From assembly GCF_030253575.1 (NCBI RefSeq), contig NC_080560.1, positions 43,105,001 through 43,169,000 of the forward strand: a DNA stretch of 64,000 bases. Reading direction: 5' to 3'. Numbering within the stretch: position 1 is the stretch's first letter; each line of letters begins with the position of its first letter. Shown piece by piece: positions 18,222 through 50,200 of the stretch. The notes under the pieces are model-generated. The model did not search any database. It had not been told where the DNA came from and worked only from the letters and a program-made list of their open reading frames with translations. Source of the stretch: Rhododendron vialii (lineage: Eukaryota; Streptophyta; Magnoliopsida; Ericales; Ericaceae). The position numbers and the translations under genes are program-made.

Positions 18222-18590
18222 GGGGCGGTTCCGGGGACACCTAAAAAAACACCCCATAGTTCCGGATTAAATTTTGATGATCCGAGCCGCTCAATGTGAT
18301 CAGAACGTGATTTTAAGGGTACCCGTGAGAAATCAGCAAAAAAAATGACCGGGAAGGACTTGATCCGAACAGTTTCGAACAGTTTTTTATTGAACGGTTC
18401 AAATAAAAACTGCTCAAATCAAACCTTTCCCGGTCATTTTTTTTGCTAATTTCTTGCGGGTACCCTTAAAATCACATTCTGCACACATTGAACGGTTCGG
18501 ATCATAAAAATTTGATCGGGAACTATGAGATTGAGATTATGGGTGTTTTTTTAGGTGTTTTTTTAGGGTGTCCATTGAACCGTTCCGTGT
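18222..18590. mobile_element. Foldback MITE-like element 2
   Basis: It is homologous to the neighbouring element 1: both carry GATGATCCGAGCCGCTCAAT and the CCGGGAAG/TTCCCGGT segments. Ends are CGGGGCGGTTCCGGGGACAC on the left and, in reverse complement, CACGGAACGGTTCAATGGAC. It is bordered on both sides by (TA)n tracts, which suggests insertion into an AT microsatellite. Confidence 0.75.
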
Positions 18591-24500: not shown

Positions 24501-27500
24501 AAAAGCTCACTGCGTGGGGCAGAGGGGAAATCATAGGCAAAATGTTGGTTGGTGAGATTTTTGGCAGTTGTTGTCAGCTCAAGGGCCCAGATGCTATGAC
24601 AAAAATGATGATTGTATTGCACAATGCAATCGCAGGACAAGAAACAGACAAGTTCCCATTTTCCTTCTTTGACCGAAATGGGAAATATGTGCAAGCTCTC
24701 TTGACAGCAAATAAGAGGGTTAATATGGCTGGCCAGATAATTGGAGCCTTCTGTTTCCTTCAGATTCCAAGTCCCGAATTACAGCAAGCTCTAAAAGTCC
24801 AGAGACAACAGGAGAGGAAATGCTTCACAAGGATGAAAGAGTTGGTTTACATTTGTCAGGAGATAAAGAATCCGTTAAGTGGTATACGCTTTACTAACTC
24901 GCTGTTGGAGGCGACAGAGTTGACTGAAGATCAGAAGCAGTTTCTTGAGACGAGTGCTGCTTGTGAGAAGCAGATGTTAAAGATTATAAGGGATGTTGAT
25001 TTGGAGAGCATTGACGATGGGTGAGTATCTCTGAATTTATTAGCTTACATTATAGCTCAAAATAAAAGGCAAGATGCATGAATCAACATAAATTTCCAGT
25101 TTATCCTTATGGAGCGCATTTAACTTTGAAATTACTCGTTTTCATCTTTGTTGGTTCAAAGTACCATCGGGACTATTTGTCAATTATAGATGTATTTCTT
25201 CCTATAAAGTACTGACACTTCTAGAGGCCGACGTGTCCTCGTGTCCGACACGGGGACCCGGCAAAATACACATTTAACTTTGAAATTACTACAACAACAT
25301 AACAGAACCCATCTAGTCCCCAATCATTGGCGGTATGGGCGGGAGATGATTGGAGACAGACCTAACATTTGGCAATATATGCACAAAGTGGCTGTTCTCA
25401 GAATACCACTGAAACAGTGGCCCCCCTAAACCTCCAAGAACCGAGGAGCTACATGGATGTTTTGTTGTAGAACCATGCCCCCCAAATCAAAGCCAAATGC
25501 AATCAGAGAGGGCAGGCCTAAAGACCCAAATCAATTTATTTGCACATTACTATGCTTCCTTCATTGATAGTCCAGAGCATCAGTATGCACAACTTTGAAA
25601 TTACTCATTTTCATTTTTGTTGGTTCAAAATACCACCGGGACTATTTGCCAACTATAGATGTATTTCTTCCCATAAAGTACCAACACTCCTAGAGGCCGG
25701 CGTGTCCTCATGTCCGACACGGGGACCCGGCAAAATACACATGGGGTGTGCATTAAATTTAATTATTTTTTAGGAGAATAAGGTGGGGACACAGGAGGGA
25801 CACATATATGGACACGGAAGGGGTTAAATGTGCAAATTTTAAAACTTTTTTTGGAGTAAATGTGTATTACTTCAAATATTTTGGATTATAAAGTGTAATA
25901 TGATGTGTATGTGATGCTTGATTATATATATTGAAGCTTCAAGCTTATACATTTAACTATATTTCCACTACTAATGCTATTTATTTATTTATTTACTTTT
26001 GTTGTGTCCCCTGCCATATCTTGTCCACATTTTTTTATAAATCTCGTGTCCGTATCTTTGCTACATAGATTTCTTCTATTAATTTCCTGTTAACATTTTT
26101 AGTTTTCCTTAAGGTAATATTGCTAACTGAGAGTCTTAAAATCTATCCATAATATTTTTTTATGACTGAATTACAACTTAGGGGTGTTGTGCATACCGAT
26201 GCTCTGGACTATAATGAAGGAAGCATGGTAATGTGCACAGAAATTGAATAGGGTCTCTAGGCCTGCCCTCTCTGATGCCATTTGACTTTGATTTGAGGGC
26301 ATGGTTTCGCAGCAAAATAGGTATAAGGGACCACTATTTTAGTGGTATTCTGAGAGCAGCCACTTTGTGCATATTGCCAAAGGTTATGTCTGTCTTCAAT
26401 CTTCCTCCGCTCATACCTCCAATGATTGGGGACTACATGGGTTCTATTGTTGTATTACAACTTAGGGGTAATGAGCCACAGTAGTCATTCTCCTTGTGGT
26501 CATGCGTCAAAGAAGCGACACTTTTCTTTTCCGTGGCCTTTTTAACTACAAATCTAACCAATCTCATATAAGTACCATCCTGTCTTATGTGGGTTTAGCC
26601 TTTATGGTTTTATCCCTCTTTTGATAGGGTGGTTGATGTATAAATTTTCTGTGATGGCCCCTAGAATCCCAACTTATGAACTCTCCGTGTGATTTCTTCA
26701 ATAGGTTACCTTTCTCTTGTTCTTTGTTTATATAATGTGCTTTTGGACTACTTGCCGACCCGAAGGCCAAAGGTGCCCTTCCAAAACATCATATTAACTT
26801 GTTTAGGTAAGGAGACCTTATTTGATATCAAACAGAACTGGACACAGAGGAAGTTTTGAAGTCATACATACAACTTTCCCATTACTGCAAAGATTGATCA
26901 GTTGCCATTAACTGTTTCAAGCCTGATGCTGCTGCCAAGATAAATCGTGTTTGAGATCTTGCTCCCTGAGTCATGGCATTTATGCTAATGATGCCCAGTC
27001 ACCTACTTGCAGTCCTGCACACACTCACAGATCTAATTGTGCTATCTTTCGTTCAATGATCTATTGACAGAGGGGAAACCTCCAAACACAGAGATCGAAG
27101 AAACAAGCCTCAGTTACTTAATTGCACTCTATTCTGCTCAATTTCTTACTTCATTCTTCATTAAATTCTGCATATGTATGAAATGGTTCTAGGGCTTAAT
27201 ACGTCACTCATCATGGTGTACATCATTTTCTTAATGGAGACATTATCTAATCATGTTAGCATTTACTCGTTGTAGTTCATTGGAGCTTGAGAAGGGTGAA
27301 TTCTTTGTTGGAGGCGTTATAGATGCCGTCGTTAGCCAAGTAATGATGTTGCTTAGGGAAAGAGGTGTACAATTGATACGGGATATTCCAGAAGAAATCA
27401 AAACATTGGCTGTTTATGGTGATCAGGTGAGAGTTCAACAGGTGTTGGCTGATTTCTTGTTGAATATGGTGCGGTATGCACCTTCTCCAGATGGTTGGGT

Positions 27501-31931: not shown

Positions 31932-33027
31932 GCTTATGGATTAGATGTTATTCCTATAACACCTTTCTTACCATGACCAATATTAACAAATAAATATTTT
32001 TTGAGTTCCTGTCATAAATTGGTTAATTCAAAGGTATAGTGTGCAGAGGTGAATTATGCAAAATTAAAAACTAAGCTAGTTTTGCTCGATTGAAATCAAG
32101 CTAAACAAGTACTTCGACATGTGAGTCAGTTAGAGAGAATCATACAAATAAATAGTGACAAAGGCATATCCTAGAGATAAAAATGCATTTTATAATAGTA
32201 TTACTAGTTTCTCCTGTTAAGATTCGAGTATATTTAAGTTCGATGAAATCAAAATTGAAACTAAATGGTCATTTGAATGACATATTTATTTTTATATTTG
32301 GTTTACCATGGATTCATGGAATGAACATTCTAAATGGAATTACTATTCACCTTAATAAATGAATCATCATTCCACTAAAATTCACTTTTAACACTGTCAA
32401 AATTAAGTGTTACACCAAAATTCACTTTTAACACTCAAAAAATTACTATTGCCACTATATTCCAATTGGGGATGATAATCGCTATTCCTAAGCACAACCA
32501 AATTTGAAAATGAGAATGAATATTCCAATATCATTTTATTCAATTTCATTATAACATCAATTACATTCAATTGTCAATTCTATTCCATCTAACCAAACGT
32601 ACCCTAACTGCATTACGGAATCTCCCATGCGGCCACTCCACTACGAGCTAGCATTCTACTGCAAGTTTAATCGGCCCAAATGACAATACGGTTCTTATGC
32701 GAAGCACTGAAATTACTGTTGGACCAATGGGACCCAATTGAAAAACAAAGCTTCCAATCATGATGCACATGGGAGAAGCTAGCACTGGAATAAGTTTCCC
32801 TCGTGGGCGTACCAATAACCACGAAGACAGTGGTGACCAAAAATAAAATAGATTTGATGATTAGGTAAAGTCTGTTACAAGTCAGTCCAAGCCACATATG
32901 GGCGCGGCAATTGGAAGACAGGTCATCCAAACTCAAGAGGTTACAAGAGCCCTCATCCGTTGATGAAAAGGGCAAAACGGTAATTGGGTCAATTATATAT
33001 ATCCACTCCATTTTTATTTTTGGTAAT
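30716..33027. other. Intergenic region upstream of the retrotransposon
   Basis: It has a GA-rich stretch at 30805–30830 followed by a GC-richer segment with an open frame (about 30919–31167) that looks like a transcript 5' end but has no recognisable protein. A GA microsatellite lies at 31869–31929. The remainder is AT-rich and without a gene. Confidence 0.4.
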
Positions 33028-33729
33028 TGTAGCGGACCGAACCCGGCTCTGGCCTCGCCAGTGTTCGGCTTCACCGAGACATGCCGGTCGTCGGCTTTGC
33101 CATCACTTCGCATTCATCAACGGAAAGAACCATGTCAAGCTCGGCCACCTTTAGGAGGTGGCCCCGTAGGCTATTTTTCTTAGCCTGGAGTCCCTTCAGG
33201 CTCGGCTACCTTTCAAGTTCGGCTTCCCTTTTAAGGTCGGCTTCTCTTCATGCTCGGATATCCCATACGCTCGGCTACCCGAACGATCGATCATGCTCGG
33301 CCACCTGCACACTCACGTGTCGCCCCGCGTGCTGAGGCGGTTACGCCAAAGGATAATCATGGGCGCACGTGGGGTGTGCCAGCTCGCACCAAAACGGTTA
33401 CCAGATTCACCCGGTGACGTCATGGCGACGTCGCCTGACCCGTGCAAGGCACATGCCCGTGCTTGGAGAGCAAGTCAAGGAGACTCTATAAATATTGAAG
33501 GATAACGCCTCTGTAGAGGTACGCATTCTCATACGCGATTAACCACTCAAAACCCTAGTCTCTTTCCTCTCTTCCTACACGTACTTATCCTCTCGCCGGA
33601 GGGCCTTGCCGGGCAACCCCCGGCCAGGTCTTAGTCGTGCGCTCATTGTGCAGGCGGCGAGGAGAAGGCTAGGCAAACATTGGACCAGCGGAGGAAGGAC
33701 TCGAGCCAGAAGAGATCACGGGCCACACA
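33028..33729 (+). repeat. 5' LTR
   Basis: Begins TGTAGCGGACCGAACC and ends GGGCCACACA. It carries the TATA box at 33487–33494 and, upstream of it, a series of TCGGC words roughly every 15–40 bp. Offset to the 3' LTR is exactly 10,993 bp. Confidence 0.95.
33487..33494 (+). promoter_or_regulatory. LTR TATA box
   Basis: TATAAATA in the sequence ACTCTATAAATATTGAAGG. Transcription should start near 33520, so the R region would cover the last 200 bp or so of the LTR. The same box in the 3' LTR is at 44480–44487. Confidence 0.65.
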
Positions 33730-33731
33730 AT

Positions 33732-33748
33732 TGGTGAACCCGACGTGA
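33732..33748 (+). other. Primer-binding site
   Basis: TGGTGAACCCGACGTGA begins two bases after the 5' LTR. TGG pairs with the CCA end of a tRNA. I did not identify which tRNA. Confidence 0.7.
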
Positions 33749-33832
33749 AACTTCTCAGCCTCTGATCCAAACGGCTCAAACGCTCTTACAATTCACCTTC
33801 CTCTCAAAAAGACGAACGAAAACTCAGCGGCG

Positions 33833-36800
33833 ATGGGCGGAGATCCACCAAACGTCTCAGTTTCTGGAGCCAAAGACACCAGTGGAAACGCGATCCTCCC
33901 ACCGTTTGCAGAAAGGCACATGTCCATCTCACTACCACCGGATTCTGGGCTCTCTCCGGCCGCAGACGACATAACAACGGCCTACATCCGCCTTCTGCAA
34001 CGGCGAGACGACGAAAGAGACAACGAACTCGCAGCGCTGAGGGCGGAAGTAGCCCAGATGAGGCAACATATGCAGGACGCAACCCCAGCTGCCTCCAGAT
34101 CCACCGGAGGCGGACGACGGAAGCGAAGAAACTCTCCTCCCCCTCCTCCCCCTCCGCCGCGGGACCACACCAACGAGGCGGGCCATCGCGTCTCCGTCAA
34201 AGACCGCCTAGGGTTTACGCCAGAAAAGGGAGACGCCCGGGAAATTATCCTCTACAAACGACCTGCAACATCTGGTACACACCATTCAAGGTCCCACCAT
34301 GAGCGGACCCGCACCAGGGACACCGAATCATTCACGAGCACGTACTCGACTGGTCGCGCGGAGTTCTCTCACACGACGGCCTCACGCCGAAGCCGAGACT
34401 CCGTCGAAACCAGGCGCCACGTCTCTGAACGCCTCGGGGGGATACCACCAGAAAACTTGGATAATGAAAACGACGTTCGGCGGAATGGCAAAAGCGTGCG
34501 GATCGAAGGGGCGGAGGATGGGAACAAAACCTATTACGATAAAGAGAAGTCGGTTAACCACCCCCGTAGGGAGACAACGGACCTACGGGACAAGCTTCGC
34601 AGCCGTGTACGCGAGAAAACCTCAGAAAGAGAGAAGCACCCAAAGAGGCCGCGGACGGACGAGCTTGGCAAACCACCGCGCCCTGGATTCGAACGGCAAC
34701 TAAAAGACCTCGGTATCTCACCCTTCACCTCCCACATCATCAACACTATCGCCGAACCCAATTTCCACCTACCAAAATTCACCAAGTTCGACCCAAGCAC
34801 CTGTGAAGCTTACACTCACCTCATTCACTTTCGTCAAACCATCGAGTTGTGCACTACAAAGGACGAGATTAAATGCAAAGCGTTCCCATCCAGCCTCGGC
34901 TCTCTTGGACTCCAGTGGTTCAACAAATTGCCCGCTGGATCCATACGGAACCTGGCTGACCTTGAACGCGCCTTCAACACCCGTTTTATTACCAGTAATA
35001 GAACAGCGAAGGAGCCTGAATCCTTGACCCAGATGAGGAAGCTCCCAAATGAAACACTCAGGCACTACGCGGAGCGGTACTGGCAACTTTTCAATGAAAT
35101 TCCCGGAATCGATGAGTATTGGGCCGCGCGTACCTTCAAAAATGGGTTAGAATCTGGGAGCAAAATACTCGATGAACTGGCCATTCGACCTCCGCACGGC
35201 ATGGGAGAATTAATGCGTGTCGTGGAACGTTTTTGTGCTCTTGAAGAGTTCTACGCAGACCGGGCCGCTCAGGGGATTCCCAACTCGACAGCTTCCCTAA
35301 CAACAACAACCCCTCAGCTGCAGACACCAGTCGCAACTCAACAATCCCACCCAAAGAAGCACGTCAACAACATCAAGGAAGGGAAGAAACGCCAGCCAAA
35401 GGAGCACGACTACGTGGCTGAAACCACCCACTTCAAAGAACCCATCTGGTCCTTCCTAAAGGAAATCATGAGGCAACCATGGTTTGAGTGGCCGCAAGGC
35501 AAACTGGGCACGGACAACGGCCAGGCGGATCAGAACCCAAGAAAGAAGTGCTCATACCACAATGAGCTCGGCCACTACACAACGGCATGTGCTCCATACA
35601 AAGCATTGTTGGAACGACTGGCAGCCCAAGGCCATCTCGACCAATACATTGATCGAGCAAAGACGCCAGCCCGCCCACCTGTCGGAAATCCCAACCCCAA
35701 CGAGCCGCGGCCAACGATACATGTCATCCACGGCCCAATGACAAAGGAATCCGAAGCACATCTCAAAGCCGACCTCGATCGCGCCTCCACTTCTAAACAA
35801 GTGCTTGCGGTAAGACCCGGGTCAAAACGCCCGCGTCCGGACGAAACACCCAGGTGGACCATCACTTTCACGGAGCGCGACCTCGAGTTCGTACAAACTC
35901 CACATTCTGATGCTCTTGTCGTCACCGTGCAAATCGGAGTCCATGATGTTAAGCGAATTCTCATCGACCAGGGAAGCTCAGCAGAGGTGATGTATTACGA
36001 CTTGTTCAAAAAACTCGACCTTCCAGAATCGGCCCTACAACCCGCCGAAGTCCCTCTCATCGGATTCAACGGGGCACCAGTTTGGCCACTTGGACGGATC
36101 TTCCTTCCGGTCGTCGCAGGTTCAAAAACGTTGACCGTCGAATTCATCGTCGTCAACGTGCCAAGCCCGTACAACGCAATTCTTGGCCGAACCTGGCTTC
36201 ACAACATGCAAGCAATCGCTTCAACCTACCACCAAGTTGTTCGCTTCATCGGCTCCGACGGACGACAAGAAGATCTAAGAGGTGACCAAGTCGCCTCGAA
36301 AAAGTGCTACGTCTCAGCCGTCCACAACTCCGCCAAAGCTAAAAAAGTACAATGTGTTGAAGTACCCAATTTGAACGTGACCGACGACGTTGGCCAAAAA
36401 GCCGAAGACAAAGCAGAGGAAGATCTCGTCAAAATGCCGATCAACGAAGATGGCTCCCGTTTCTTCTTGATCAGCTCTTCTATCAGCGAGGTCGACCGCG
36501 AAGAAATGTTTCAGTACCTCAAGGAGAACATGGAAGTCTTTGCCTGGACCCCCAACGAAATGCCGGGGGTTGATCCAAATTTCATCAGCCACTCTCTCAA
36601 TATCAAGAAAGACGCAAAACCAGTCGTCCAAAAGGCCAGGCGCTCCGCAGCCGAACACGCCGACGCCGTCACCGAAGAGGTCAAGCGTCTGCTAGAAGCA
36701 AATGCAATTCAAGAAGTGCAATACCCAACGTGGCTGTCCAACACCGTTGTCGTTAAGAAGAAAAACGGCAAATGGCGAGTCTGCGTGGATTACACCAATC

Positions 36801-39682
36801 TCAACGACGCTTGCCCAAAAGATTGGTTCCCACTTCCAAAGATTGACCAACTCGTGGATGCAACAGCAGGACATGCTCGGCTAAGCTTTCTGGATGCTTA
36901 CCGTGGCTACCACCAAATTGCCATGGACCCTGACGACATGGAGAAAACTGCTTTCATCACGCCTTATGGCATCTTCTGCTACCGCGTCATGCCCTTTGGA
37001 CTCAAGAATTCTGGTGCGACGTTCAACAGAGCAATATTCAAGATGTTGCAAGAACAAATTGGCTACACCGTGGAGGCTTACATTGACGATTTGGTCGTCA
37101 AGAGCAAGCAGGAATCCAACCACTTGCGAGACTTGGCGGAAGTCATCGAAATTCTCAAGTACCACAAGCTTCGACTGAACCCAGAGAAGTGCGCATTCGG
37201 AGTAAGCGCAGGAAAGTTCCTCGGGCACCTTGTCACTCGAAGAGGTATTGAAGCCGACCCCAACCAAATCAAGGCTGTTAAAGAGTTGCGCCCACCAAGA
37301 ACAATCAAGGAAGTACAGCGGCTCACTGGGATGGCAGCCGCTTTGAACCGATTCATCAGCAAATCATCGGACAAGTGCCACGCGTTCTTCCACGCCTTGA
37401 AGGGAAAAAGCCGGCGCAGCTTTGAATGGACCCCGGATTGCGAATCTGCTCTGACCGAACTCAAAGACTATCTAAATTCCGCCCCGCTGCTGGTGAAACC
37501 TAAAGAGTTTGAAATTCTATATCTCTATCTCGCCGTGTCCGCCCACGCAACAAGTTCCGCACTCATACGACGGGAGGGCGCCGAAGACAAACCCATCTAC
37601 TTCACAAGCAAGACGCTCCTTCCAGCTCAGACACGCTACCTACCACTTGAAAAATTGGCACTTGCTCTCGTCACAGCGGCCAGGAAACTTCTGCCTTATT
37701 TCCAATCACATCCCATCGTCGTCTTAACGGAGCACCCGCTCAAAGCTATCTTTCGAAAGGCAGATCTCTCCAACCGTGTATCAAAATGGGCTGTCGAACT
37801 TGCAAACTTCGACATCAGCTTTGAGCCACGAACAGCAGTCAAAGGCCAAGTGTTGGCCGACTTCATAGCGGAACTCACCCCAGAAGACACAGTGGTACTC
37901 AATGCTCCTATCCCAACGGAAGTTGCAGATACTAGCCCATCAACCAAACAATGGCACCTTTTTCAAGGAGAAACTTGGCGGCTTAACGTCGACGGGGCTT
38001 CCAACAGCAACGGAGCCGGAGCCGGGGTAGTCTTGGTCTCACCTTGTGGAACACTTCATGAAAGCTCCATCACCATCGACTTCCCAGCCACCAACAACGA
38101 AGCAGAATATGAGGCCCTCCTCGCCGGCTTACGCTCAGCCGTCGCAATGAATGTCACCAACCTCGCTGTCTACTGCGATTCCCAGCTCATCGTCAACCAA
38201 GTACTTGGCGACTATGAAGCGCGGGACCCTAGAATGCTGAAATACCAAACCGAAACAGCCAGGCTCATCTCCCATTTCCACAATTTCAGCATTGAACAGA
38301 TCAACCGCGAGCACAACGCGCACGCGGACGCACTTGCGGGCCTCGCCTCGGCATCCAGAACCTCAGAATTCAGAACCATCAACTTCGGCAGCATTGACCA
38401 CCCATCCTATGAACCCACTCTAGAGGTACTCAATGTCGAACTCGGTCCCAGCTGGATGGATGAAATCGTTGCGTTTCTAAAGCACGACACCCTTCCCACA
38501 GAAAAGAAGGAAGCTTACCGTGTGCGAAATAAGGCCGCTTACTACTGGCTTTCTGAAAGCGGCCAACTGTACAGGAAATCCATCTCTGGGCCATACCTCC
38601 TCGTTGTCCACCCCACCCAAATACCTGAAATTCTGACGGAACTTCATTCAGGAAGTTGCGGCTGTCACTCTGGCGGCCGCTCCCTGTGTCAACGCGCCAT
38701 GAGTCAAGGCTACTTCTGGAAGAACATGAAGAAAGACTGCGAAGAGGTTGTCCGCAAATGTCGACCGTGCCAGCTGTTTTCACCTATCCCAAAAAAGCCA
38801 GCTCAGGACCTCTCGCCCATCACTAGTCCCTGGCCCTTTGCCCAATGGGGGCTTGACATCGTGGGAAAGCTGCCTACAGCTCCTGGAGGCTTCAAGTTTC
38901 TGATTACAGCCACAGACTACTTCTCCAAATGGGTTGAAGCAGAGCCTCTCATAACAACAACTGAGGCGGATGTCCGAAGATTCGTATGGCGAAACATTGT
39001 TACCAGATTCGGCGTCCCATACGCAATCGTCTCCGATAATGGAACTCAATTCGTCGGCAAGGACCTCACAAACCTTTGTGCCGAATTTGGGATACGCTTC
39101 TTCAACTCCACCCCAGCCTACCCACAAGGAAATGGACAAGCAGAGGCCACGAACAAAACTGTCTGTGCCGGCATCAAGCGTCGACTGAACTCCAAGAGAG
39201 GAAAATGGGCTGAAGAACTACCACGCGTTCTATGGGCCTACCGATCAACACCAAGGCGATCAACGGGCCAAACACCATTTTCAATGGCGTTTGGCATGGA
39301 AGCCGTCATCCCATTGGAGTCCAAGTTTCCAACTCTCAGGACAGAAACGTTTGATCCCAGAACAAACGACGATGCCATCGCACAGGAGCTAATTTTGGCG
39401 GAAGAGAAGCGTGATGACGCTCGCCTGCACCTTGCTGATTACCAGCAACAGGTGGCCAAGGGATATAATCGTGGCGTGCGAATCAAAAAATTCAAGCCGG
39501 ACGATTTGGTTTGGAGAAAAGTTGTGCAAGCCAGCAAGAAAACCAAATTCAAGCCCAATTGGGAGGGGCCTTTTCGAATCGTAAAAGTTGCTGGTGAAGG
39601 TGCCTACGTGCTGGAGGACATGAATGGGAAAGTTCTAACTAACCCATGGAATGCACAGAATCTCAAGAAGGCGTACATGTAG
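33833..39682 (+). CDS. Gag-pol polyprotein of the Tat-type element
   Basis: One uninterrupted frame of 1949 aa encodes the particle protein and the replication enzymes. The charged N-terminal region is followed by a gag domain (about 310–480) and a CHHC-like knuckle, CSYHNELGHYTTAC (about 570). Aspartic protease shows IDQGSS with D712. Reverse transcriptase shows YIDD (D1085, D1086). An RNase H of the usual gypsy type follows (about 1215–1350). A second, archaeal-type RNase H shows D1387 (NVDGAS), E1423 (NNEAEYE) and D1449 (YCDSQ). Integrase has an HHCC zinc finger (about 1605–1645) and the D1675, D1735, E1771 triad with the canonical 35-residue spacing. The frame has no stop and all listed catalytic residues are present, so it is probably functional. 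Gag and pol share one frame, so cleavage by the protease is expected. Confidence 0.93.
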   Translation: MGGDPPNVSVSGAKDTSGNAILPPFAERHMSISLPPDSGLSPAADDITTAYIRLLQRRDDERDNELAALRAEVAQMRQHMQDATPAASRSTGGGRRKRRNSPPPPPPPPRDHTNEAGHRVSVKDRLGFTPEKGDAREIILYKRPATSGTHHSRSHHERTRTRDTESFTSTYSTGRAEFSHTTASRRSRDSVETRRHVSERLGGIPPENLDNENDVRRNGKSVRIEGAEDGNKTYYDKEKSVNHPRRETTDLRDKLRSRVREKTSEREKHPKRPRTDELGKPPRPGFERQLKDLGISPFTSHIINTIAEPNFHLPKFTKFDPSTCEAYTHLIHFRQTIELCTTKDEIKCKAFPSSLGSLGLQWFNKLPAGSIRNLADLERAFNTRFITSNRTAKEPESLTQMRKLPNETLRHYAERYWQLFNEIPGIDEYWAARTFKNGLESGSKILDELAIRPPHGMGELMRVVERFCALEEFYADRAAQGIPNSTASLTTTTPQLQTPVATQQSHPKKHVNNIKEGKKRQPKEHDYVAETTHFKEPIWSFLKEIMRQPWFEWPQGKLGTDNGQADQNPRKKCSYHNELGHYTTACAPYKALLERLAAQGHLDQYIDRAKTPARPPVGNPNPNEPRPTIHVIHGPMTKESEAHLKADLDRASTSKQVLAVRPGSKRPRPDETPRWTITFTERDLEFVQTPHSDALVVTVQIGVHDVKRILIDQGSSAEVMYYDLFKKLDLPESALQPAEVPLIGFNGAPVWPLGRIFLPVVAGSKTLTVEFIVVNVPSPYNAILGRTWLHNMQAIASTYHQVVRFIGSDGRQEDLRGDQVASKKCYVSAVHNSAKAKKVQCVEVPNLNVTDDVGQKAEDKAEEDLVKMPINEDGSRFFLISSSISEVDREEMFQYLKENMEVFAWTPNEMPGVDPNFISHSLNIKKDAKPVVQKARRSAAEHADAVTEEVKRLLEANAIQEVQYPTWLSNTVVVKKKNGKWRVCVDYTNLNDACPKDWFPLPKIDQLVDATAGHARLSFLDAYRGYHQIAMDPDDMEKTAFITPYGIFCYRVMPFGLKNSGATFNRAIFKMLQEQIGYTVEAYIDDLVVKSKQESNHLRDLAEVIEILKYHKLRLNPEKCAFGVSAGKFLGHLVTRRGIEADPNQIKAVKELRPPRTIKEVQRLTGMAAALNRFISKSSDKCHAFFHALKGKSRRSFEWTPDCESALTELKDYLNSAPLLVKPKEFEILYLYLAVSAHATSSALIRREGAEDKPIYFTSKTLLPAQTRYLPLEKLALALVTAARKLLPYFQSHPIVVLTEHPLKAIFRKADLSNRVSKWAVELANFDISFEPRTAVKGQVLADFIAELTPEDTVVLNAPIPTEVADTSPSTKQWHLFQGETWRLNVDGASNSNGAGAGVVLVSPCGTLHESSITIDFPATNNEAEYEALLAGLRSAVAMNVTNLAVYCDSQLIVNQVLGDYEARDPRMLKYQTETARLISHFHNFSIEQINREHNAHADALAGLASASRTSEFRTINFGSIDHPSYEPTLEVLNVELGPSWMDEIVAFLKHDTLPTEKKEAYRVRNKAAYYWLSESGQLYRKSISGPYLLVVHPTQIPEILTELHSGSCGCHSGGRSLCQRAMSQGYFWKNMKKDCEEVVRKCRPCQLFSPIPKKPAQDLSPITSPWPFAQWGLDIVGKLPTAPGGFKFLITATDYFSKWVEAEPLITTTEADVRRFVWRNIVTRFGVPYAIVSDNGTQFVGKDLTNLCAEFGIRFFNSTPAYPQGNGQAEATNKTVCAGIKRRLNSKRGKWAEELPRVLWAYRSTPRRSTGQTPFSMAFGMEAVIPLESKFPTLRTETFDPRTNDDAIAQELILAEEKRDDARLHLADYQQQVAKGYNRGVRIKKFKPDDLVWRKVVQASKKTKFKPNWEGPFRIVKVAGEGAYVLEDMNGKVLTNPWNAQNLKKAYM

Positions 39683-40585
39683 TTGAAATCCCGAGCAGTA
39701 TGCCCCATGTTCGGCAACTGTCTATCCTATTTTCCTTTAAGTTGGCTTCGGCCCAAGTCTTTTTATTTCAAATTGTAATTCCATGTTTGGGAAATCAAGG
39801 AAAAATTGTCCTACAGTTGTCTTTTGCAAACTCCAAAAAATTCTTTGTTCTGTGCTTTTCTTCGGCAACACTAGCCGACCACAAACGATGACCTCGGTCA
39901 CACCCACAAACGGCTACTATGCCTCCGCTTCGGCCACTATTACTGCCCAAAAGAAGCACAACGGACATCAGGTCCACCGAGCCCGACAAAACAGTCTGGC
40001 TCCGGTTCGGCTCGGCAAGACTCTAAGGTCGGCCATAGCCTGGTTACACTCACATTTTGGTGAGCAAACCACCCACAAACATATCCCTCAACCAACTTAG
40101 CTAGGGGCTTGCACCTCGACAAAGCCCCACCACTCAATACACTTGAAATGACTAACATAAACGACCAAGCAGAACTACAGGCTCGGCAAATCCACAGCTC
40201 TAAACTACAACGTCGAGCAAATACCCATATGCTTTAGCCGAACATAGACCAAAGTGGGGGCTACGGATACATATCATGTAAGAACACTCAAAACCTGTGG
40301 CCACGCTAATTTAACCGAGCACAGCACCATGCCCGGCACTTTGTTCATACCAATCTCTTACATTACTTTGGTCCAAGCTCGGCAAAAACTTAGCAACTAC
40401 ACACTTGAACAAACTACAGAATATCAGGGAGCAAGCATTGCAAAACGCTAGTCATCCATTAAAAAGAAAGCATTGAAAAGACGAGTTCGGTAAAAACATC
40501 CACAAGCCAAAACAACCATTACACCTGGTACGGCAAAACTTCTAAATTCAGAGCCGTCCAGTCCAACAAAAAATAAGAGAAAATC
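39683..40585. other. Spacer between gag-pol and the antisense gene
   Basis: Non-coding on both strands as far as I can see. Rich in TCGGC/GCCGA words. It would carry the 3' ends of antisense transcripts. Confidence 0.6.
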
Positions 40586-43016
40586 CTAAACTTGGGGAAG
40601 ATCATCAGCAGCGACATCAGCATTCTTTCCACTCCCGTCTTCGGCAGCTTTCCCATCACTAACTTGAGCTCGCGCAGCATCCTGACTGGCAGCTTCAGTC
40701 GCGCCTCCTTCGGCTTCATCTGCCCTCTTTCCACTTAAACCTCCACCACCTTCGTTGTCGGCAACAGTCAGGTCATCTACATCCTCCTCACTCTCCGAAA
40801 ACTCCTCTGGAGGAAGTGGTGCACACTCATCGTCGGTATAAGGCAACACAAGCTCGGGCACCTCGGCTGCAGGAATCGACTTTGTCAAATTCATGTCCGC
40901 CTCGAGCTGCAAGACCCCACACGCAGCTTTTACCCCAGCCTTGTATCCCCCACGGTACGCAATGGGGACCCGGGTTTTGATCTCTTCATTAACCATCGAT
41001 CTAGCCTCCCGAACATACTCGGCTCCTGCTCTGTCATACCCAGCCTGGTAGGCTTTTTCATCAACTTCTTTCATCTTCCTCTTCTCTCTTCTTAACACCT
41101 GACCAAGCTCGCGCTCGGATTTTTTGACCTTCTCCAATGCATCATCCCTCTCCTTCTCGAGCTCGGCAATCTTAGTCTTGGCCGACTTCAAGGCGTTCTT
41201 TGCAGCCTTTGTTTTTTCACGCTCGGCTTTTGCGTCATCACGATAACGCGTCCTCTCGGCCGCCAGCAGATCAGCCTGATCAGAAACTCGCAGCAGAGCC
41301 TGTCCTGCCTACAAAGAACAAAACAGTTATGCCCAAAAGCAAAAACAAATGCCAAAAAACTCCATATCTAAGGAATCGAGTAACAAAATACCTGAACGAG
41401 GTAGGCGCTAGCATGAGCAATGCTCGGCTGCAGCTCCCGGGGAACCCTCTCCATATCCCTCGGAAGAGCCAAACCATGCAGCACGGTAACGGCGAGGCCT
41501 GGTTCCAGCTTGACACTATCGTCAACACTTATAACTCTACCCTCGGCCGTAGCAAATGAAGGCGCGAACTCCTGCAAGGTCACTTGACCCGCAGAGCCCG
41601 CCGACTTCTCCACGGCTTTGGAGCCACCAGCAGCAGATGAATCAGTTTGATCCTTTAGCACTGGCGTCGGCGGCCTGGTTGGAAAGAAGTCACGAGTAAC
41701 CTTCTGTTTCTTTGAGGCAGGCTCAGTCGTTTCGGCCTCCTTCTGCCGAGCGAGAGCACCGTCCCTGAGGTTAATCTTCACCACGTTCCTTCTGCCCATA
41801 TCTTCGGCAAATTCAGGTATTAGTGTTCGGATTGGTGGGATGCTGGCACCTAGAAACTCAGCCGGCTGACTCTCTTGAAACCAAAAATCCGCGGACTTCT
41901 TTAGAGTGGGAAACTTCACCCTTGGCTCCTTCTTCTTACCAGGATTGGGGGCAACACCTCCAGCCTCTTGTTCACCGACTGTCTTCTTCCCTTTACCCTT
42001 CGTGCTCGGTCCTGCTTCTCGCCCCCTTCTCTTCAATTTTCCCTTGTACGAAGGTACGTAGCCAAGCAACGTCGGCGCGTCACGACAGATCTGAGCCTTT
42101 AGCGTCTCGACGTGCCCTTCTACGGCAAAGGACTGCTGCCTCTTGGTAATTGCTCGGTGATCTGTGAAGAGAGATCGTCGGCCAAATAAAGAGTTAAAAT
42201 TGCAGTAGAAATTAAATTGTGCTCGGCATATAAAGGGAAAGGAGTTGAACCTCGAAAATCTTTTATCTTCGGCACTGAGTGCAGCCTCAGCAACTGGTCG
42301 CCAAACTCATAATTTCCACTAACTTCAACATAAAAATTGGCCCATTTATCAGTATCGGGAAGACCATTTATCAAGGGATCCTTGCCACTACGTGTCGACA
42401 AGTACCTACGGTCGGTCTTGCCGTGCCTGGACATGATATAAGTGTGGAAGAGGTCGGCGACCGTGAATTCTAGATTATGGAGCTCCTTCAGTTTGATCGC
42501 CGACATCACTATCCTATAGCTATTTATAGCAAAGAAATGAGGAACTATGCCGAATTTGGCCAGCAGTTCCCTCAAAAATGGGTGAAGAGGAAAACGGAGT
42601 CCAGCTTCACAGATTGCCATGAGAGGAACCGTTATGTGTTCGGGGTGGTCTTCCCTCTTATCCCTTATTTTGTTACTGGCCACCTGGCTAACGACGACGT
42701 CGTCAGGGATATTGTACGTTCGGCAGAAAGCATCGTACTCATCAGGCTGGCCGCTGAAATAGTGGGCATATGGACAAACCTGCCCTCGCTCGTATAGATC
42801 AGCAACCTCCCTGTTCTCTGATGAAGTTTCGGCCGGAACAGTACGTGAAGAAGTTGTGGCCTCGGTTTGGGCTCGGAGCCTGGACTCCGCCTCGGGACCA
42901 AGTTCGTGCTCGGAAATAGATTCCGTACTTGTGGTAAAAGTTATCTCAGGCGCAGTGTCGTACCCGCCGTCGTATTCATAGTCGCGCTCGGCATTGGAGT
43001 CACTAGATCCAGACAT
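40586..43016 (-). CDS. Antisense spliced gene of the retrotransposon (Transposase_28-like)
   Basis: A 752-aa protein is encoded on the strand opposite to gag-pol. Coding exons on the minus strand are 43016–42251, 42161–41392 and 41308–40586. The introns are 89 and 83 bp, each GT–AG, and the phases close. The start is the first in-frame ATG; the frame is open further upstream to a TTG at 43154. Residues about 70–255 resemble the family named putative gypsy-type transposon (Transposase_28), with GLRFPLHPFLRELLAKFGI as the clearest match. Basic stretches (KGKLKRRGRE, SKKQKV) could be nuclear signals. Exon 3 opens with a coiled coil of about 100 residues rich in Lys/Glu, then an acidic Glu/Asp/Ala/Gly tail. 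Antisense ORFs are known from Tat elements such as Grande; their function is not known. A TATA box and leader intron lie upstream on the same strand. Confidence 0.8.
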
Positions 43017-43147
43017 ATTGGAGGCAATTGAAGAGGCCTGTCGTCGGCTTCTGTACCTCTCCACGTACGCTCGGATCACGAGGTTTGTGGAATCGTCCCC
43101 TGAACTTTCAGAGTCGGATGAAATGATGATAATCGAGTGAGCCAGAC

Positions 43148-43538
43148 CTAACAAAGAAAAGATTGAAAAAATGAAAAATCCTCGTCGTCGGCTAGAAGAC
43201 AGAGGCCATTCTACGTTCGGCTACTTAAAACTGGCCCACTCTATTATCACAATCCACAGGTCCGTGTTCGGAAATCGAGGACGTATGTTGACGTCCTCGG
43301 CCAAATCCGTTGTCGGCCAAGCTTGTTAACAACATACTGATGCTCGGCCAGACCTTGTCATCGGCCCAGATCGTCAACAACAAGGATTGGGGCTCGGAAG
43401 AACATGTTAGGGCTGAAGATGAACAGTCTGCCATCTCCAGCGACCCACTGTTTACTTGAGGCAGCGAACCCAAAAAACGAACAGACTATGAATAAAACTT
43501 GCATAAACCACCATAATGTTAGAAGAAAGAACTCATAC
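43148..43538 (-). other. Leader intron of the antisense gene (predicted)
   Basis: On the minus strand CCTCAG precedes GTATGAG (exon end 43539), and the acceptor TTTGTTAG precedes GTCTGG (exon start 43147). The leader exon between the TATA box and this donor has no ATG. After splicing, the first ATG is the one at 43016, which supports that start. Confidence 0.5.
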
Positions 43539-43677
43539 CTGAGGTTTTTAACGAAGATCTGCTGAAGAAATCCCAGGAGATCAAGATCAGAAGTCGAGTG
43601 GGTGTAACTTCGAGTTCTGGAAATGGAGTTCTAGAGAGAGAGAGAGAAAACGTAGCTTCTCTCTCCTCCCCTCACCC

Positions 43678-43685
43678 TTTATATA
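43678..43685 (-). promoter_or_regulatory. TATA box for the antisense gene
   Basis: Reads TATATAAA on the minus strand, about 660 bp upstream of the antisense ATG and outside the LTR. A CT-rich stretch (about 43632–43650) lies at the expected transcription start. Confidence 0.6.
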
Positions 43686-44003
43686 GGATTAGGGTTTGAG
43701 GTTTGAAACTCCCGCCCATCATTACACCGCCGAACTTTTGACTATTCAGCGATTAACACGTGGCAAGAAGAGGACAACCTGCAAAGCTTGCCAGCCGTCC
43801 TCTCGCTGGCCGTACCCAGCCATGGAGCGACATCTGGCACCCTCCCACTGAGATTCTGCACCAACGGCTGATATTGCTTCCCAAGAAAGGATGGGATAAA
43901 GCACGGCTGAATCTCTTCCTTGAACAAAAGTAAAGTGACGTTCGGTAGTCCTTGTGTTCGGCCAAGGCTTGATATCAATCCCTACCTCGCGCTCGGCATC
44001 AGT

Positions 44004-44020
44004 AGAGATTGAGGGGCTAT
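44004..44020 (+). other. Polypurine tract
   Basis: AGAGATTGAGGGGCTAT directly precedes the 3' LTR. It is purine-rich with a few pyrimidines, at the position where plus-strand synthesis is primed. Confidence 0.6.
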
Positions 44021-44722
44021 TGTAGCGGACCGAACCCGGCTCTGGCCTCGCCAGTGTTCGGCTTCACCGAGACATGCCGGTCGTCGGCTTTGCCATCACT
44101 TCGCATTCATCAACGGAAAGAACCATGTCAAGCTCGGCCACCTTTAGGAGGTGGCCCCGTAGGCTATTTTTCTTAGCCTGGAGTCCCTTCAGGCTCGGCT
44201 ACCTTTCAAGTTCGGCTTCCCTTTTAAGGTCGGCTTCTCTTCATGCTCGGATATCCCATACGCTCGGCTACCCGAACGATCGATCATGCTCGGCCACCTG
44301 CACACTCACGTGTCGCCCCGCGTGCTGAGGCGGTTACGCCAAAGGATAATCATGGGCGCACGTGGGGTGTGCCAGCTCGCACCAAAACGGTTACCAGATT
44401 CACCCGGTGACGTCATGGCGACGTCGCCTGACCCGTGCAAGGCACATGCCCGTGCTTGGAGAGCAAGTCAAGGAGACTCTATAAATATTGAAGGATAACG
44501 CCTCTGTAGAGGTACGCATTCTCATACGCGATTAACCACTCAAAACCCTAGTCTCTTTCCTCTCTTCCTACACGTACTTATCCTCTCGCCGGAGGGCCTT
44601 GCCGGGCAACCCCCGGCCAGGTCTTAGTCGTGCGCTCATTGTGCAGGCGGCGAGGAGAAGGCTAGGCAAACATTGGACCAGCGGAGGAAGGACTCGAGCC
44701 AGAAGAGATCACGGGCCACACA
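44021..44722 (+). repeat. 3' LTR
   Basis: 702 bp with no difference from the 5' LTR that I could see. Its TATA box (44480–44487) faces the kinase gene that begins at 47250. Confidence 0.95.
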
Positions 44723-47249
44723 GTAATGCAGGGTGTTTTGGGACAGTTTGAGCGCACCTCAGACTAATCCCTACAATCCCTCCCACAGCCGTTTCACACG
44801 CTTACGTGTGAGAGCGCCTTGAAATGGTTAAATGAATAAGCTGTACAACAAACCAAGCTATTCGGATTTGACTCGTTAACCTTAGCAATGCTAACCTTAG
44901 CAATGCTAACCTTAGCAATGTCTTAAATAGATAACTAAAAAATGATGTGGCAACTTTTGGTTATCCAATTTTGATTATTAAATTGCGGAGGCTCTTAGAA
45001 GCTCATTTAGATTCGTTAGAGTCAGTTTGAAAAACTTTTAATTTTTAAAGGTCATTCATTTTTTCAAATCGTAACATAACAAACTATTGCTCGATTTGTT
45101 CTCCTTATGATATTTTGAAAATTCGAGTAATCTGAGATAAATATGTGCTCATTCGAGATCGACTTGTCGTATAAAGAAGTTAAATTTACACATGTTTTTA
45201 ATACTCAATAAACTTTCAATCTAACTTTCGAACAATCTATCACTCAAGTCGTCCATTTCGTTTTCTCGAGCGGAGGAGTAGTTATTATTCAGTACTCTTG
45301 GAGCATTATCATGCGACGCCCCTACGACTTGCATCACCACACATTGGTGTGGGCCGCACACTTAGTAATGAAAACTCACACGAATTTGCAGTAAAGAATA
45401 CCTTCGGAGTGCTACGTGACGGAGCTCGGTGCTCCTTGAGCAAAGAAGACAAGAAATTGGATTGGAGGGATGAAAGTCTTTAAAAAGGATAATGGAATTT
45501 GGAAAGTGACGTGCCACGCGCTTTGCCCATCTTGTGGACGTTTCGAGTACCTACTTTCTGGTTAAGTTAAAACATGATTGGCTATTAGGGCGAGTGTCAT
45601 CTACGCGCCCATGTGAAGCTCGTGGGTATCCAATTACTTGTCACACTTCTATAAGACAACTTGTCGAAAATTTTTTACGATCTCAATCCTTAAATTTTGG
45701 TTCATTTCGCATTTTGGCCATAAATAAATTATTTACAATTCAGCCCTTAACATGGTAGATTGTCAAAGCGTGGGCACCAAACCTAACCAACATTGGTGTT
45801 GTAAAGGAAAAAGCCACGTGGCAACATGGGTGACTTACACGTACTTAGATTGAATGGAAACACATGCAAATATTATCCATGGTAATTTATTAGATATGGC
45901 TTTCTTTGTACGTATTAAATTTTTTTTAGATTGTTCCTCAACTATAAGTAATGTACCTCAACTATAAGTAATGTAAGGCCTCGTTCCAGAAACCTTCTTA
46001 AAAAATAAGCAGTTTATTTAACATTTTCAAACTAAAAAATAATGTAAATAAAAAATAAATTTTCAATATTTTTTGCATTGTATAAAAGATTTCATCGAGA
46101 TCTTTCAAATAAGATCCGTATTGCATATTTTTAGATTTCAATAAAATCATAATTTTTGAACTTGAAATTACCTTCTTAAAAAATAAAGATTTTTTTTCGT
46201 TTGCGGAACGGGCTCTAAGTAAGCTAGTGCTAAATTCAAAGATCTCACGTTTGGCCGTTGTACACCAACTTAGAAAAATCAATTTCTTGACGTACTCGTG
46301 CTCGTTTTTACAGTTTTGAGATAAGTAGAGAGGTATAATTGATAGGAGTGATGCAAGGGTAGAACAAAGCTTACAACGTAAATGTGAATTTGTGCATGTT
46401 GACAATATGATACTCTAATGATTTGTTTTGAACTTGTGGAAAAGAAAAGAAAAAAGAAAAAAGGGCAAATTTAAAATTTCTTTTTCATTGTTTGGTTTGG
46501 AAAGAGAGGAGAGAATGAAAATATCTAGAATTGTACACAGTATAATTTTACTTTCATTTTCATCGTAGTTTTCTCCCATTTCCTTTTTCTGTCTTTCTTT
46601 CATTTTCTTCAAGTTCCAAACAAAACATAATTGGAGAAGAAAGACATTTGGAGTGAGACATGAGCCAAATTTTGAGGGACAAAAGTGCTATATTACCAAT
46701 CTTTAGATTCAGATGATGATGAGAGAACAGCAGAGAGAAACAGAGAGAAGCAACCATCGCCAATACCGCCCATAGAAGCCAGTGAGAATCACAGCTAGAC
46801 ATTTGGAGAGAGAGTGAGAGCCAAGAAATACAAGTGAAAAGTAGAAGAAAGGATAAAAAGTTGAGAGCGAAAAATAAGGGGAGTTTCTTGACCACTCAAG
46901 GGGGTTACCATTCCATTCCCTTCACCAATACATCAATCCATCACAAAGAATGGTTTTTTCCTTTTCTAGAGAGCGAAAAAAAGAGACTGGGAATCAGTAA
47001 CGGATCCATAAACCCATACCAAAAGTAGTCAAACTTTTGGTGGGTTTTCTTCTTTCAGCTTCTCCATTTTCTTGATGACTAAATTGTCTCGCCCAGCTTA
47101 AACGGGCCTCGATTCGAGTATTTTTGGTAACTCAGCTGGACCAATTTGAGCGCACCTCGATCAGTTCTTTTTGATAATTTTAGTGGCCGGACCAACTTAG
47201 GCCAACTTAGTCCAGCTTAGTCGCACCTCAACTCGTTTGGGTTTCGTCA
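44723..47249. other. Intergenic region and 5' flank of the Raf-like kinase
   Basis: It begins with the second GTAAT target-site copy. A 15-bp minisatellite (three units of TAACCTTAGCAATGC) lies at 44877–44921. The rest is AT-rich. The 200–300 bases before 47250 are CT- and AG-rich and are the probable leader of the kinase gene. No clear TATA box was found. Confidence 0.5.
44877..44921 (+). repeat. 15-bp minisatellite, three units
   Basis: TAACCTTAGCAATGC occurs twice exactly; a third unit ends in T instead of C. Confidence 0.9.
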
Positions 47250-50200
47250 ATGGACGCACCACCACCGCCACCGGCTGAGGAGCTGCTAAAGAAGATCCAA
47301 GAACTCGAAGCGGGTCATGCCCACTTGAAGCACGAGATGTCAAAGCTCTTGATTTCCACCGATCAGCAAAAGTCAGCCCCAGCACACCAACAGAGGTCCC
47401 ACTCGGTGTCGCCGCAGCGGCTGCGGCGGAGAGTCGGCGGCGTTGAAGGCGCGACGGCGGTGTTGAAGAAGGGTTCGGCATCGTTTCGGAATTCGTCGCC
47501 GTTGCAGAGGGAGAGTCGGAGTGGTGTCGCATTGAACTCTGGCGGTGGAGGGTGTGGGCCGGCGGCTGTGGGATTTAATGATAGGCAGTATTTGAACATA
47601 TTGCAGTCAATGGGTCAGTCTGTTCATATATTTGATCTCAACCTTCGTATAATCTACTGGTGAGTTAATTGAATTGCATTTCTAAGTTGGGAAAAGAAAT
47701 TGTGGTGCTAGCTCATTTTTGTCAATTGTTGTTTTAATTAAAAGAACACAATCACGGCATATCCTCCCTTGAATTTTCGAGTTTTGGAGCTATAGGGCCG
47801 CCATTTTAGTGGTAAAACTTTATGAGAGAAGCCCTTTGAGAGTAACACTTTGTGCATATATTGCTAAAGTTTAGGTTTGCCTTCGGTCCTCCTCGCCCAT
47901 ATCCCATGGACTGGGGATTGATTGGGAATTAGATAGGTACTGTTGCTTAAAGTAGCAGTTCTCTTGCTTTGATAGTTTGATTCATTGAGTTGGGTTTATT
48001 GGTTGAGATTGATTACAGTTACTGAGGTAGGAAAGCTTTTAACAACAGTGTTGAAATCCTTTCTTGAAACCTTCCATATTTGCCCATTTGGTCTTTTGAG
48101 ATAAGGGTTGAAATCCGTTTCTGAAATCTTCAATCATTGCCCGTTTGGTGCTTATTCTTGTGCAGGAATCGTACTGCAGAACAACTCTATGGTCATTCTG
48201 CAGCAGAAGCTCTCGGTCAGGATGCCATTGAGCTCCTAACAGATGTCCGAGACTATGCTGTAGTTAGTGATATAATACAACGGGTGACAATGGGGGAGAG
48301 CTGGGCTGGTCAACTTCCTGTTAAGAATAAGAGAGGGGATACGTTTGTAGTCCTTGCAACCAACTCCCCCTTTTACGATGACGATGGCACTTTGGTTGGA
48401 ATTATCTGTGTCTCTAGTGATTCACATCCATTTCAAGACAGAAGGGATGATTTCCCAGGTACAAAGCACACAGAGGGAGGTTTGAGCTTTAGCCGGCCTA
48501 GAAGCATTGCTTCAGCCAAACTTGGTCTTGATCCTCAACAACCTCTCCAAGTTGCAATTGCGTCTAAAATATCTAATTTGGTTAGTTCAACAGCTTTTGT
48601 AGTTTTTCTGTGGTTTAGTAATAGTGTAGCTTATATTGATTGGTAAAAACTTCAAAACAGGCTTCCAAGGTGAGCAACAAGGTTAAGTCCAAAATGAGGA
48701 CTGGAGAGAGCAATATGGATCGTGAAGGTGGGGGTGGAGATGGTCATTATTCTGATCATGGTTTCTCAGATGCAGCACTGTCTGATCATAGGGAGGATGC
48801 CAATTCAAGTGGAGCTAGTACACCCAGAGGAGATATACCACCATCTCCCTTTGGAGGATTATCTCAAGTTGCACATGACGAGCACTCCCCAGGGAAACTC
48901 TCTAGAGATTCCGGTGATGAGAGTGAAGGGAAACCTGGAATTCATAAAATCATTAGTTCAAAAGCAGAGGCATGGATTGGTAAGAAAGGATTGTCGTGGC
49001 CGTGGAAAGGGAATGAGCATGAAGGCGTGGAAGCAAAGAACATCCGGTTTGTTTGGCCGTGGTCGAACAATGATCATGAGAATGACTTTGGTCATCTGAA
49101 GAGTTCTTTTTCTGGTGTGAAACAAGATAGTCAAGTGGGTGAGAGTAATCGGCCTACCCATAATGAAGCTTCAGGGTCATGGTCATCATCATTCAATGTT
49201 AACAGCACAAGTAGTGCAAGTAGCTGTGGAAGTACCAGCAGTAGTGCTGTTAATAGAGTGGATGTGGACACTGATTCCTTGGACTACGAAATCTTGTGGG
49301 AGGACTTGACAATAGGAGAGCAAATTGGACAAGGTAATTAATTGTTGATCTAACAGGTTATGAGTAGTGAGTGCTTATTTTTGTAATTTTTGCATACCGC
49401 TCTCTCACCTTCAACTCCCACTTTTCTGTTTCCTCTTAATGCCACTGAAGCATGTATAATGGCAGGCAGACAGTGAGTGGGGTTTATCAACTACGTTTCA
49501 TTTGTTTCCATTTTAGTTTCCACTTGGAAACGAGTCTTTTATTTTTGCAACTTTTGTGGTTAGTTGGTTGCTCGTTTCCTTGATGAACATACATGCATTG
49601 AAGCCTAAATGCACATCTCTTGGTCCTTTTGTTGTTTGCCACAGATTTGGTGGTTCCTATGGTTAAAATGCTTATTACACTGTTTGTGATGAATACCTTT
49701 CATTCTAATTCTTATGTTTTTGTCTTTTATTTTATTCCTTTTCTTCAATGTTTTGGTAGGTTCTTGCGGAACTGTATATCATGCTCTTTGGTTTGGATCG
49801 GTACGTTCTTTACATCTTTTTGGATCTCAATTTCAATATATTTCTCTTCCTTTTATAATGCATGAAAGCAACTCTTTTACTTTACCCAAAAACAGGAAAC
49901 ATCCTTTTGGTTATATTTGGTAAAGGAACTATAATGTCAAAGTTCCTTGATCGACTAAAATTGAGATGCAAGAACTGACTAATTTTACATTGAAAATTTA
50001 CAGTGAAGTGTTCCAGAACAAAAAATTTGGAGTTGGAGATGGAAAGATAAATTTGTTCACTACTATCCTCTGAATGTCTTTGGAGGTCCACAGAATGGGT
50101 TGAATTTTAAGCACTTAGCTATCTTAAAAAATAGTCCCAACTTTAATTTGTGAATATGACAAGCTATGGAGAAATCGATCAAGTCTTACTGGTATAGTGT

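Follow-up and report, generated by a model that had tools for sequence, protein, structure and literature searches.

A spliced antisense gene with a probable CUG start and a one-orientation array of a short DNA word inside a Ty3/gypsy retrotransposon of Rhododendron vialii

A young Ty3/gypsy retrotransposon spans positions 33028-44722 of a 64,000-nucleotide stretch of the Rhododendron vialii genome (contig NC_080560.1, positions 43,105,001 to 43,169,000; the whole stretch is called the window below). Between its pol region and its 3' long terminal repeat (LTR) lies, on the minus strand, a spliced antisense gene that comparison of related copies confirms as real. The gene has its own TATA box, a leader exon and leader intron, and three coding exons; its translation probably begins at a CUG codon, and it is accompanied by an array of the word GCCGA(G/A)C, set predominantly in one orientation. 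Antisense open reading frames (aORFs) with a Transposase_28 domain are already known in Retand elements, and what is added here is the splicing, the probable CUG start and the array. It is plausible that the encoded protein controls its own element, with the array as its candidate cis target. Coordinates of all features are given in Table 1.

The original prediction joined three minus-strand frames (43016-42251, 42161-41392 and 41308-40586) through two short GT-AG introns, in phases 1 and 0, into one frame of 752 amino acids (aa), and this structure is upheld by the sequence and by the splice sites of its relatives. The relatives were drawn from the same 532.6-Mb, 13-contig genome and comprise 38 loci for the exons, 33 aligned rows (the window included) and 40 further start regions. 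Their choice was not random: they are the best-scoring exon 1 matches (149 scored of 2345 candidates) together with Transposase_28 matches (at least 109 of the 150 scored, from 1960 candidates). The case for the gene is built on three observations. (i) The six splice dinucleotides are conserved in 32, 33, 31, 32, 33 and 32 of the 33 rows. (ii) The mean p-distance is 0.46 in intron 1 and 0.516 in intron 2, against 0.237, 0.303 and 0.33 in the three exons; that of the leader exon is 0.443. (iii) The leader exons hold 2 ATGs, with 39.6 expected (standard deviation 5.2; dinucleotide shuffles), and the stretch between the leader acceptor and the AUG at 43016 holds 5, with 82 expected, whereas the leader introns hold 415, with 309 expected. 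The leader exon is thus depleted of ATG and the leader intron is not, as the splice model would have it. These counts cover 62 of 72 copies (in the other ten the TATA box or the donor was unrecognised), and the leader end used may be one base short, which is immaterial to them; the 56 distinct leaders alone give 2 ATGs against 37.9 expected.

The TATA box, ATG-free leader exon and leader intron that had been proposed upstream are likewise all present. Where both TATA box and donor were found, they lie about 135-148 nt apart, with one copy at 117. Among the eight of 72 copies that miss the TATA pattern, L011 and L012, which have a longer leader intron, carry a TATA further upstream (142-145 nt before the donor); none was seen in the upstream sequence of L026 and L033, that of L036 is incomplete, and L013, L014 and L034 were scored by pattern only. 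Two further lines of argument for the splicing were discarded. Exon similarity reaches the junctions in most matching loci, but the exons were separate tblastn queries that themselves stop there, and their ends therefore cannot show where similarity stops. Nor does an open frame prove splicing, since many other GT-AG pairs keep a single sequence open.

Judged by substitution patterns, the antisense exons are under purifying selection as protein. The median ratio of nonsynonymous to synonymous divergence (dN/dS) is 0.085 for exon 1, 0.16 for exon 2 and 0.163 for exon 3 (175, 195 and 158 pairs with dS of 0.05-1.2; the pairs are not independent), and one set of 16 sequences gives 0.079, 0.158 and 0.17 for the same exons and 0.064 for pol, near which exon 1 falls. 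Wrong forward frames have medians of 1.30-2.13. Two of the reverse frames lie at 1.26-2.36 and the third at 0.20-0.33; a low value in the third is expected because its wobble positions coincide with those of the true frame, and it always exceeds the value of the true frame. The comparison with related elements that the original prediction had named as a check thus bears the protein out in every exon. Eleven of the 33 rows, the window among them, are intact through all exons, and the exon lengths keep phase in 19 of 33.

Four copies (L011-L014) are 96-97% identical to the window protein in exon 1, about 74% in exon 2 and about 65% in exon 3. Such identities mark them as mosaics, in which families have recombined inside the antisense gene.

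The coding strand of the antisense gene is enriched in the word GCCGA(G/A/C)C. In the window, the counts on the gene strand and the other strand are 8 and 0 in the leader intron (shuffle mean 0.41, maximum 3), 9 and 2 in the LTR (mean 2.07, maximum 7 of 1000), 3 and 1 in the spacer between promoter and LTR (mean 0.39, maximum 3), 2 and 0 in the coding introns (mean 0.06, maximum 2), 10 and 5 in the region 3' of the gene (mean 0.76, maximum 4), and 0 and 0 in the leader exon. The aORF coding sequence contains 30 such words against a codon-preserving expectation of 11.4 (maximum 21 of 1000), and gag-pol shows no enrichment (15 against 20.4 expected). Across 72 copies, the 328 nt of leader intron next to the acceptor, a length fixed for this count, carry 451 sites on the gene strand and 11 on the other where about 35 would be expected, and no copy has fewer than three. 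CCGAGC ranks first among 6-mers in each of the four sets of copies, which represent three clades (for instance, 272 against 24.8). With its flanks the word grows to about TTGGCCGARCNYGA in clades A and B, and to a lesser extent in C. Many leader-intron sites hold the same positions across clades, and site columns are more conserved than the rest of the intron: 0.917 against 0.706 in clade A, 0.814 against 0.471 in B and 0.661 against 0.363 in C (14, 10 and 2 rows; 2, 0 and 1 of 372 slid masks reach the observed value).

The main rival explanation of the array is a host factor: the words would be a cis element for a host AP2/ERF-DREB protein, and the aORF protein would act otherwise, for example in nuclear import or integration targeting. 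An array that follows the antisense promoter and recurs in the LTR has an enhancer-like placement, and GCCGAC, which we take to match the core of the dehydration-responsive element, is among the enriched words, with 22 occurrences in the element. The chief words, however, are CCGAGC (34) and CCGAAC (26), not GCCGAC; one-strand orientation and sites in the aORF coding sequence but not in gag-pol would be odd for a plain enhancer; and no such array appears in four loci from a distant Transposase_28 family (5 and 2 GCCGA words in 12.5 kb). A host factor is thus quite possible, yet falls well short of an even chance. That the aORF protein itself binds the array can be advanced tentatively, at somewhat less than even confidence.

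The ATG at 43016, which the original prediction took as the start, remains the first AUG of the mRNA and would open the 752-aa form, but it is probably not the only start, since the 43 codons upstream of it are also selected. Their dN/dS is 0.187 in one set of 49 rows and 0.243 in another of 21, with wrong forward frames at 1.09-2.03 (L066 and L051 were excluded, and L069, whose start is lost, enters only the 73-copy count below). No in-frame AUG accompanies this extension in any of the 66 spliced readings (six of the 72 copies were left out, their donor being unrecognised), and in 40 of the 66 the leader has a stop in that frame. A selected extension without an in-frame AUG points to the CUG at 43145, and a protein of 795 aa beginning there is probable on this sequence evidence. 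The first codon of the extension is CTG in 69 of 73 copies, TTG in two, CTA in one and lost in one. Among 29 conserved leucine codons it shows the least synonymous variation (31/33); the GCT that follows (33/33) ranks joint first of 25 alanine codons, and a CAC after the start (33/33) first of nine histidine codons in synonymous fixation. The context has a purine at -3 (66/66) and G at +4 (72/72), as would suit a near-cognate start codon. Between CTG and AUG the frame stays open in 67 of the 73 copies (five are broken by a stop or shift, one has lost the start), and its length is 129 or 135 nt according to clade, with one exception. Most simply read, these sequences would have translation begin at CUG 43145 and, through leaky scanning, also at AUG 43016.

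The added N-terminus begins LAHSIIIISSDSESS... in the window and LAHEVIDVSSDSD... in the clade of L008. By clade it carries IIIISSDSESS, IIVISSDSESS or VIDVSSDSD, a hydrophobic core with an SSDS run, which we take to resemble the SUMO-interacting motif class (hydrophobic core plus acidic or phospho-serine run); SUMO binding is putative.

Alternatively, AUG 43016 might be the sole start and the upstream 129 nt conserved for splicing or RNA structure. The gene indeed shows its lowest synonymous divergence in its first 20 codons (0.05 where the median is 0.359 among 13 close rows, and 0.299 against 0.558 among 21 rows), which indicates that a nucleotide-level signal is also present there, perhaps serving initiation or splicing. 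In addition, a short stem-loop at 43098-43113 (+33 to +48 behind the CTG) is paired in 97% of cells over 45 distinct sequences and has two double-change pairs, a weak hint given without a null model. The dN/dS of the extension, set against wrong forward frames above 1, and the frame kept open at one of two clade-specific lengths argue against this reading, which we judge distinctly unlikely. Less probable still, the AUG for the extension might be supplied by another first exon further upstream, for instance one derived from the LTR, or by a leader intron that some copies retain. The acceptor can accept other donors, and a retained leader intron would supply an in-frame AUG in 13 of 72 copies; the remaining 59 lack one even then, the CTG is the most fixed leucine codon and stands in a constant context, and the TATA-to-donor distance is steady, all of which makes such a route highly unlikely. 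An action of the antisense RNA in place of a protein, for instance by giving rise to double-stranded RNA that would silence the element (a role discussed for antisense ORFs in PMC7264820), is scarcely credible beside purifying selection in all exons, with exon 1 close to pol, phase-keeping exon lengths in 19 rows and 11 rows intact throughout.

As a separate observation, L002, L005, L006 and L007, of the distant Transposase_28 family, lack the GCCGA(G/A)C array and have an ATG-poor open stretch upstream of their own ATG, with a different upstream part (MSEGFIN...). Homology between that start and the one described here was considered and set aside, the alignment being too short.

In the protein, the Transposase_28-like domain suggested earlier has a weak match in the window by hidden Markov model search. 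At E<=1 each of the eight aligned members gives a match, the best at 9.8e-7, and L008, of the same gene family, scores 32.2 bits. A search of solved structures with exon profiles gave one weak match for exon 2, to La-related protein 7 (E 0.55), none for exon 1 (E<=1) and none for exon 3 (E<=0.01). The basic KKQKV stretch in exon 2 resembles a nuclear localisation signal, a putative role.

Table 1. Features of the element and of its antisense gene, in window coordinates. NLS, nuclear localisation signal.
Feature	Position	Strand	Remarks
5' LTR	33028..33729	+	702 bp; 100% identical to 3' LTR
gag-pol, one open frame, 1977 aa	33749..39682	+	stop-to-stop; start codon not fixed
Region 3' of antisense gene	39683..40585	-	motif words 10 on gene strand, 5 on other; shuffle mean 0.76
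Exon 3 with TAG stop	40586..41308	-	coiled-coil-like part and acidic tail (by eye)
Intron 2, 83 bp, phase 0	41309..41391	-	CAG/GTATTT...TTTGTAG/G
Exon 2	41392..42161	-	
Basic NLS-like KKQKV	41698..41712	-	K-(K/R)-QK conserved in 15 aligned proteins
Intron 1, 89 bp, phase 1	42162..42250	-	GAG/GTTCAA...TTCACAG/A
Exon 1 including N-terminal extension	42251..43147	-	
Transposase_28 (PF04195) match	42480..42617	-	residues 177-222; 20.3 bits
First AUG, start of 752-aa form	43014..43016	-	ATG in 31/33 rows
N-terminal extension, 43 codons	43017..43145	-	no in-frame AUG upstream; dN/dS 0.187, 0.243
SUMO-interacting-motif-like stretch IIIISSDSESS	43101..43133	-	similar hydrophobic-then-SSDS stretch in other clades
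Proposed CUG start codon	43143..43145	-	CTG in 69/73 copies, never ATG
Leader intron, 391 bp	43148..43538	-	donor 32/33, acceptor 33/33; directional GCCGA(G/A)C array
Leader exon	43539..43655	-	start inferred as TATA+30; ATG-free; not protein-conserved
TATA box of antisense gene, TATATAAA	43678..43685	-	pattern match in 64/72 copies
3' LTR	44021..44722	+	702 bp; first ~300 bp with minus-strand GCCGA(G/A)C words

The youth of the host element follows from its identical LTRs, whose ends were trimmed by eye to TG...CA and which are flanked by a 5-bp target duplication, GTAAT (33023-33027 and 44723-44727). The exon proteins of two other copies are identical to those of the window, and their 3' LTR is 99.86% identical. 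Gag-pol contains RVT_1, RT_RNaseH, RVT_3 (an additional archaeal-type RNase H), an integrase zinc-binding domain and rve, with no chromodomain match in gag-pol at E<=0.001, a domain composition that agrees with Tat/Retand; dual RNase H we take to be a mark of the Tat lineage. The layout agrees as well, with the antisense gene carried in the region between pol and the 3' LTR (39683-44020). At 4.3 kb, this region lies inside the 2.9-6.6 kb span given for Retand elements in PMC11963269.

Elsewhere in the window, an inverted repeat at 18255-18527 (121-nt arms, 86% complementary, 31-nt gap), possibly a small inverted-repeat transposon, adjoins a direct repeat. Direct repeats occur at 10319-10590 (136 nt, tandem, 98%) and at 25122-25742 (152 nt, 92%). 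To the right of the element, plus-strand frames at 47211-49341 resemble, as judged by eye, a PAS-domain/kinase host gene.

We infer from its sequence that the antisense gene is expressed, and its proposed action can be rationalized into four steps. (i) Transcription and splicing: the antisense unit would have a TATA promoter of its own, situated immediately internal to the 3' LTR, and the leader intron and both coding introns would be removed. (ii) Translation: ribosomes would scan the ATG-free leader and initiate at CUG 43145, right behind the leader splice junction and in good context, giving the 795-aa form with the SUMO-interacting-motif-like N-terminus; those that pass the CUG would start at AUG 43016 and give the 752-aa form without that stretch. 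(iii) Targeting: the protein, with its Transposase_28-like domain, NLS-like stretch, coiled coil and acidic tail, would enter the nucleus and bind the array, either by itself or together with a host factor, at its sites in the leader intron, in the half of the element that holds the antisense gene and in the initial part of the LTR. (iv) Regulation: once bound, the protein would regulate the element that encodes it, and would most likely do so by maintaining it in an open state or by countering its silencing, as VANC does for VANDAL elements. Taken whole, from second transcription unit to two protein forms, array and self-regulation, this explanation is on balance the probable one. Anti-silencing as such, as opposed to some other regulatory role, is drawn from the analogy and is doubtful. 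Equally unlikely to hold in full is its most specific version, a Retand-type self-targeted counter-silencing in which two forms, with and without the SUMO-interacting N-terminus, recognise the array in LTR, leader intron and gene body and keep the element open, in a VANC-like manner that arose independently in class I elements.

Several findings weigh against this account. At the level of the gene, 22 of 33 rows fail the intact-frame test (two of these are cut by the end of the fetched piece), although broken frames are expected in relatives because old insertions decay. For the start, the leader is open in the frame of the extension in 26 of 66 copies, a retained leader intron would bring the in-frame AUGs counted above, and codons 1-3 touch the splice acceptor, where a splicing constraint could fix some letters. 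For the protein, the Transposase_28 match in the window, at 20.3 bits, is below the curated cut-off of 26.2, and the single-sequence fold of exon 1 is unusable (mean predicted local distance difference test score, pLDDT, 33.9). For the array, LTR sites were found in the window and six copies only (two near-identical, four mosaic), and in 13 other copies, whose alignment covered just the later portion of the LTR, there are 0-2 sites per strand. Nothing ties the array to the aORF protein over a host factor, and its GCCGAC members presumably equal the plant dehydration-responsive element/C-repeat core.

Known systems provide a framework for this gene. In recently active Retand clusters, antisense Transposase_28 ORFs were found in 97% of those surveyed, with DNA binding predicted (PMC11963269); another study gives Transposase_28 in 23% of Retand elements (PMC6317226). 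Like Retand TRP28, the present gene is an antisense ORF between pol and the 3' LTR, with a Transposase_28-like domain and identical LTRs (PMC11963269). Unlike in that survey, which scores ORFs separately by an ORF finder, we describe one spliced gene with a leader intron, a probable CUG, a SUMO-interacting-motif-like N-terminus and a directional array. The text of PMC11963269 contains 'intron' and 'TATA' 0 times, and has 'splic', 'exon' and 'promoter' nowhere but in its reference list. Among the matches listed from the open-licence PMC literature, no title or abstract opening pointed to a spliced or CUG-started Retand antisense gene. Gene23 of the maize element Grande is also antisense between pol and the 3' LTR and has its own promoter, predicted here from sequence; its protein is reported as nuclear, a location only proposed here (PMC7264820). 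The authors of PMC7264820 urge that antisense and spliced transcripts be examined.

By analogy, the nearest functional model would be VANC, an anti-silencing protein that binds arrays which the present one resembles. As in the VANDAL elements, an element-encoded protein is found with a dense, one-orientation short motif in the non-coding parts of its cognate element, introns included (PMC5735166). The differences are nonetheless clear: VANDALs are Mutator-like DNA transposons, VANC has the DUF1985 domain, and its motifs form tandem repeats that copies gain or lose (PMC5735166); the leader-intron sites described here, in contrast, stay in place. DUF1985 had no Pfam match in the exon frames, and the protein is not a member of the VANC family by this measure. 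HBZ and APH-2 are likewise antisense and spliced, with a nuclear regulatory role that is observed there and proposed here, and HBZ forms differ at the N-terminus, as the two forms proposed here would, a likeness of layout; their promoter, in contrast, lies in the 3' LTR and not in an internal region with a TATA box (PMC10186651).

What an earlier survey would count as separate ORFs are here the exons of one selected gene, and annotation that needs an ATG and a single open frame would overlook both its splicing and its N-terminus. A defined DNA word now stands as a candidate target for this member of a gene class whose role has been unexplained. If the proposal is true, self-binding control through a short repeated DNA word would account for the role of this gene class, and VANC-like counter-silencing would have arisen independently in class I elements.

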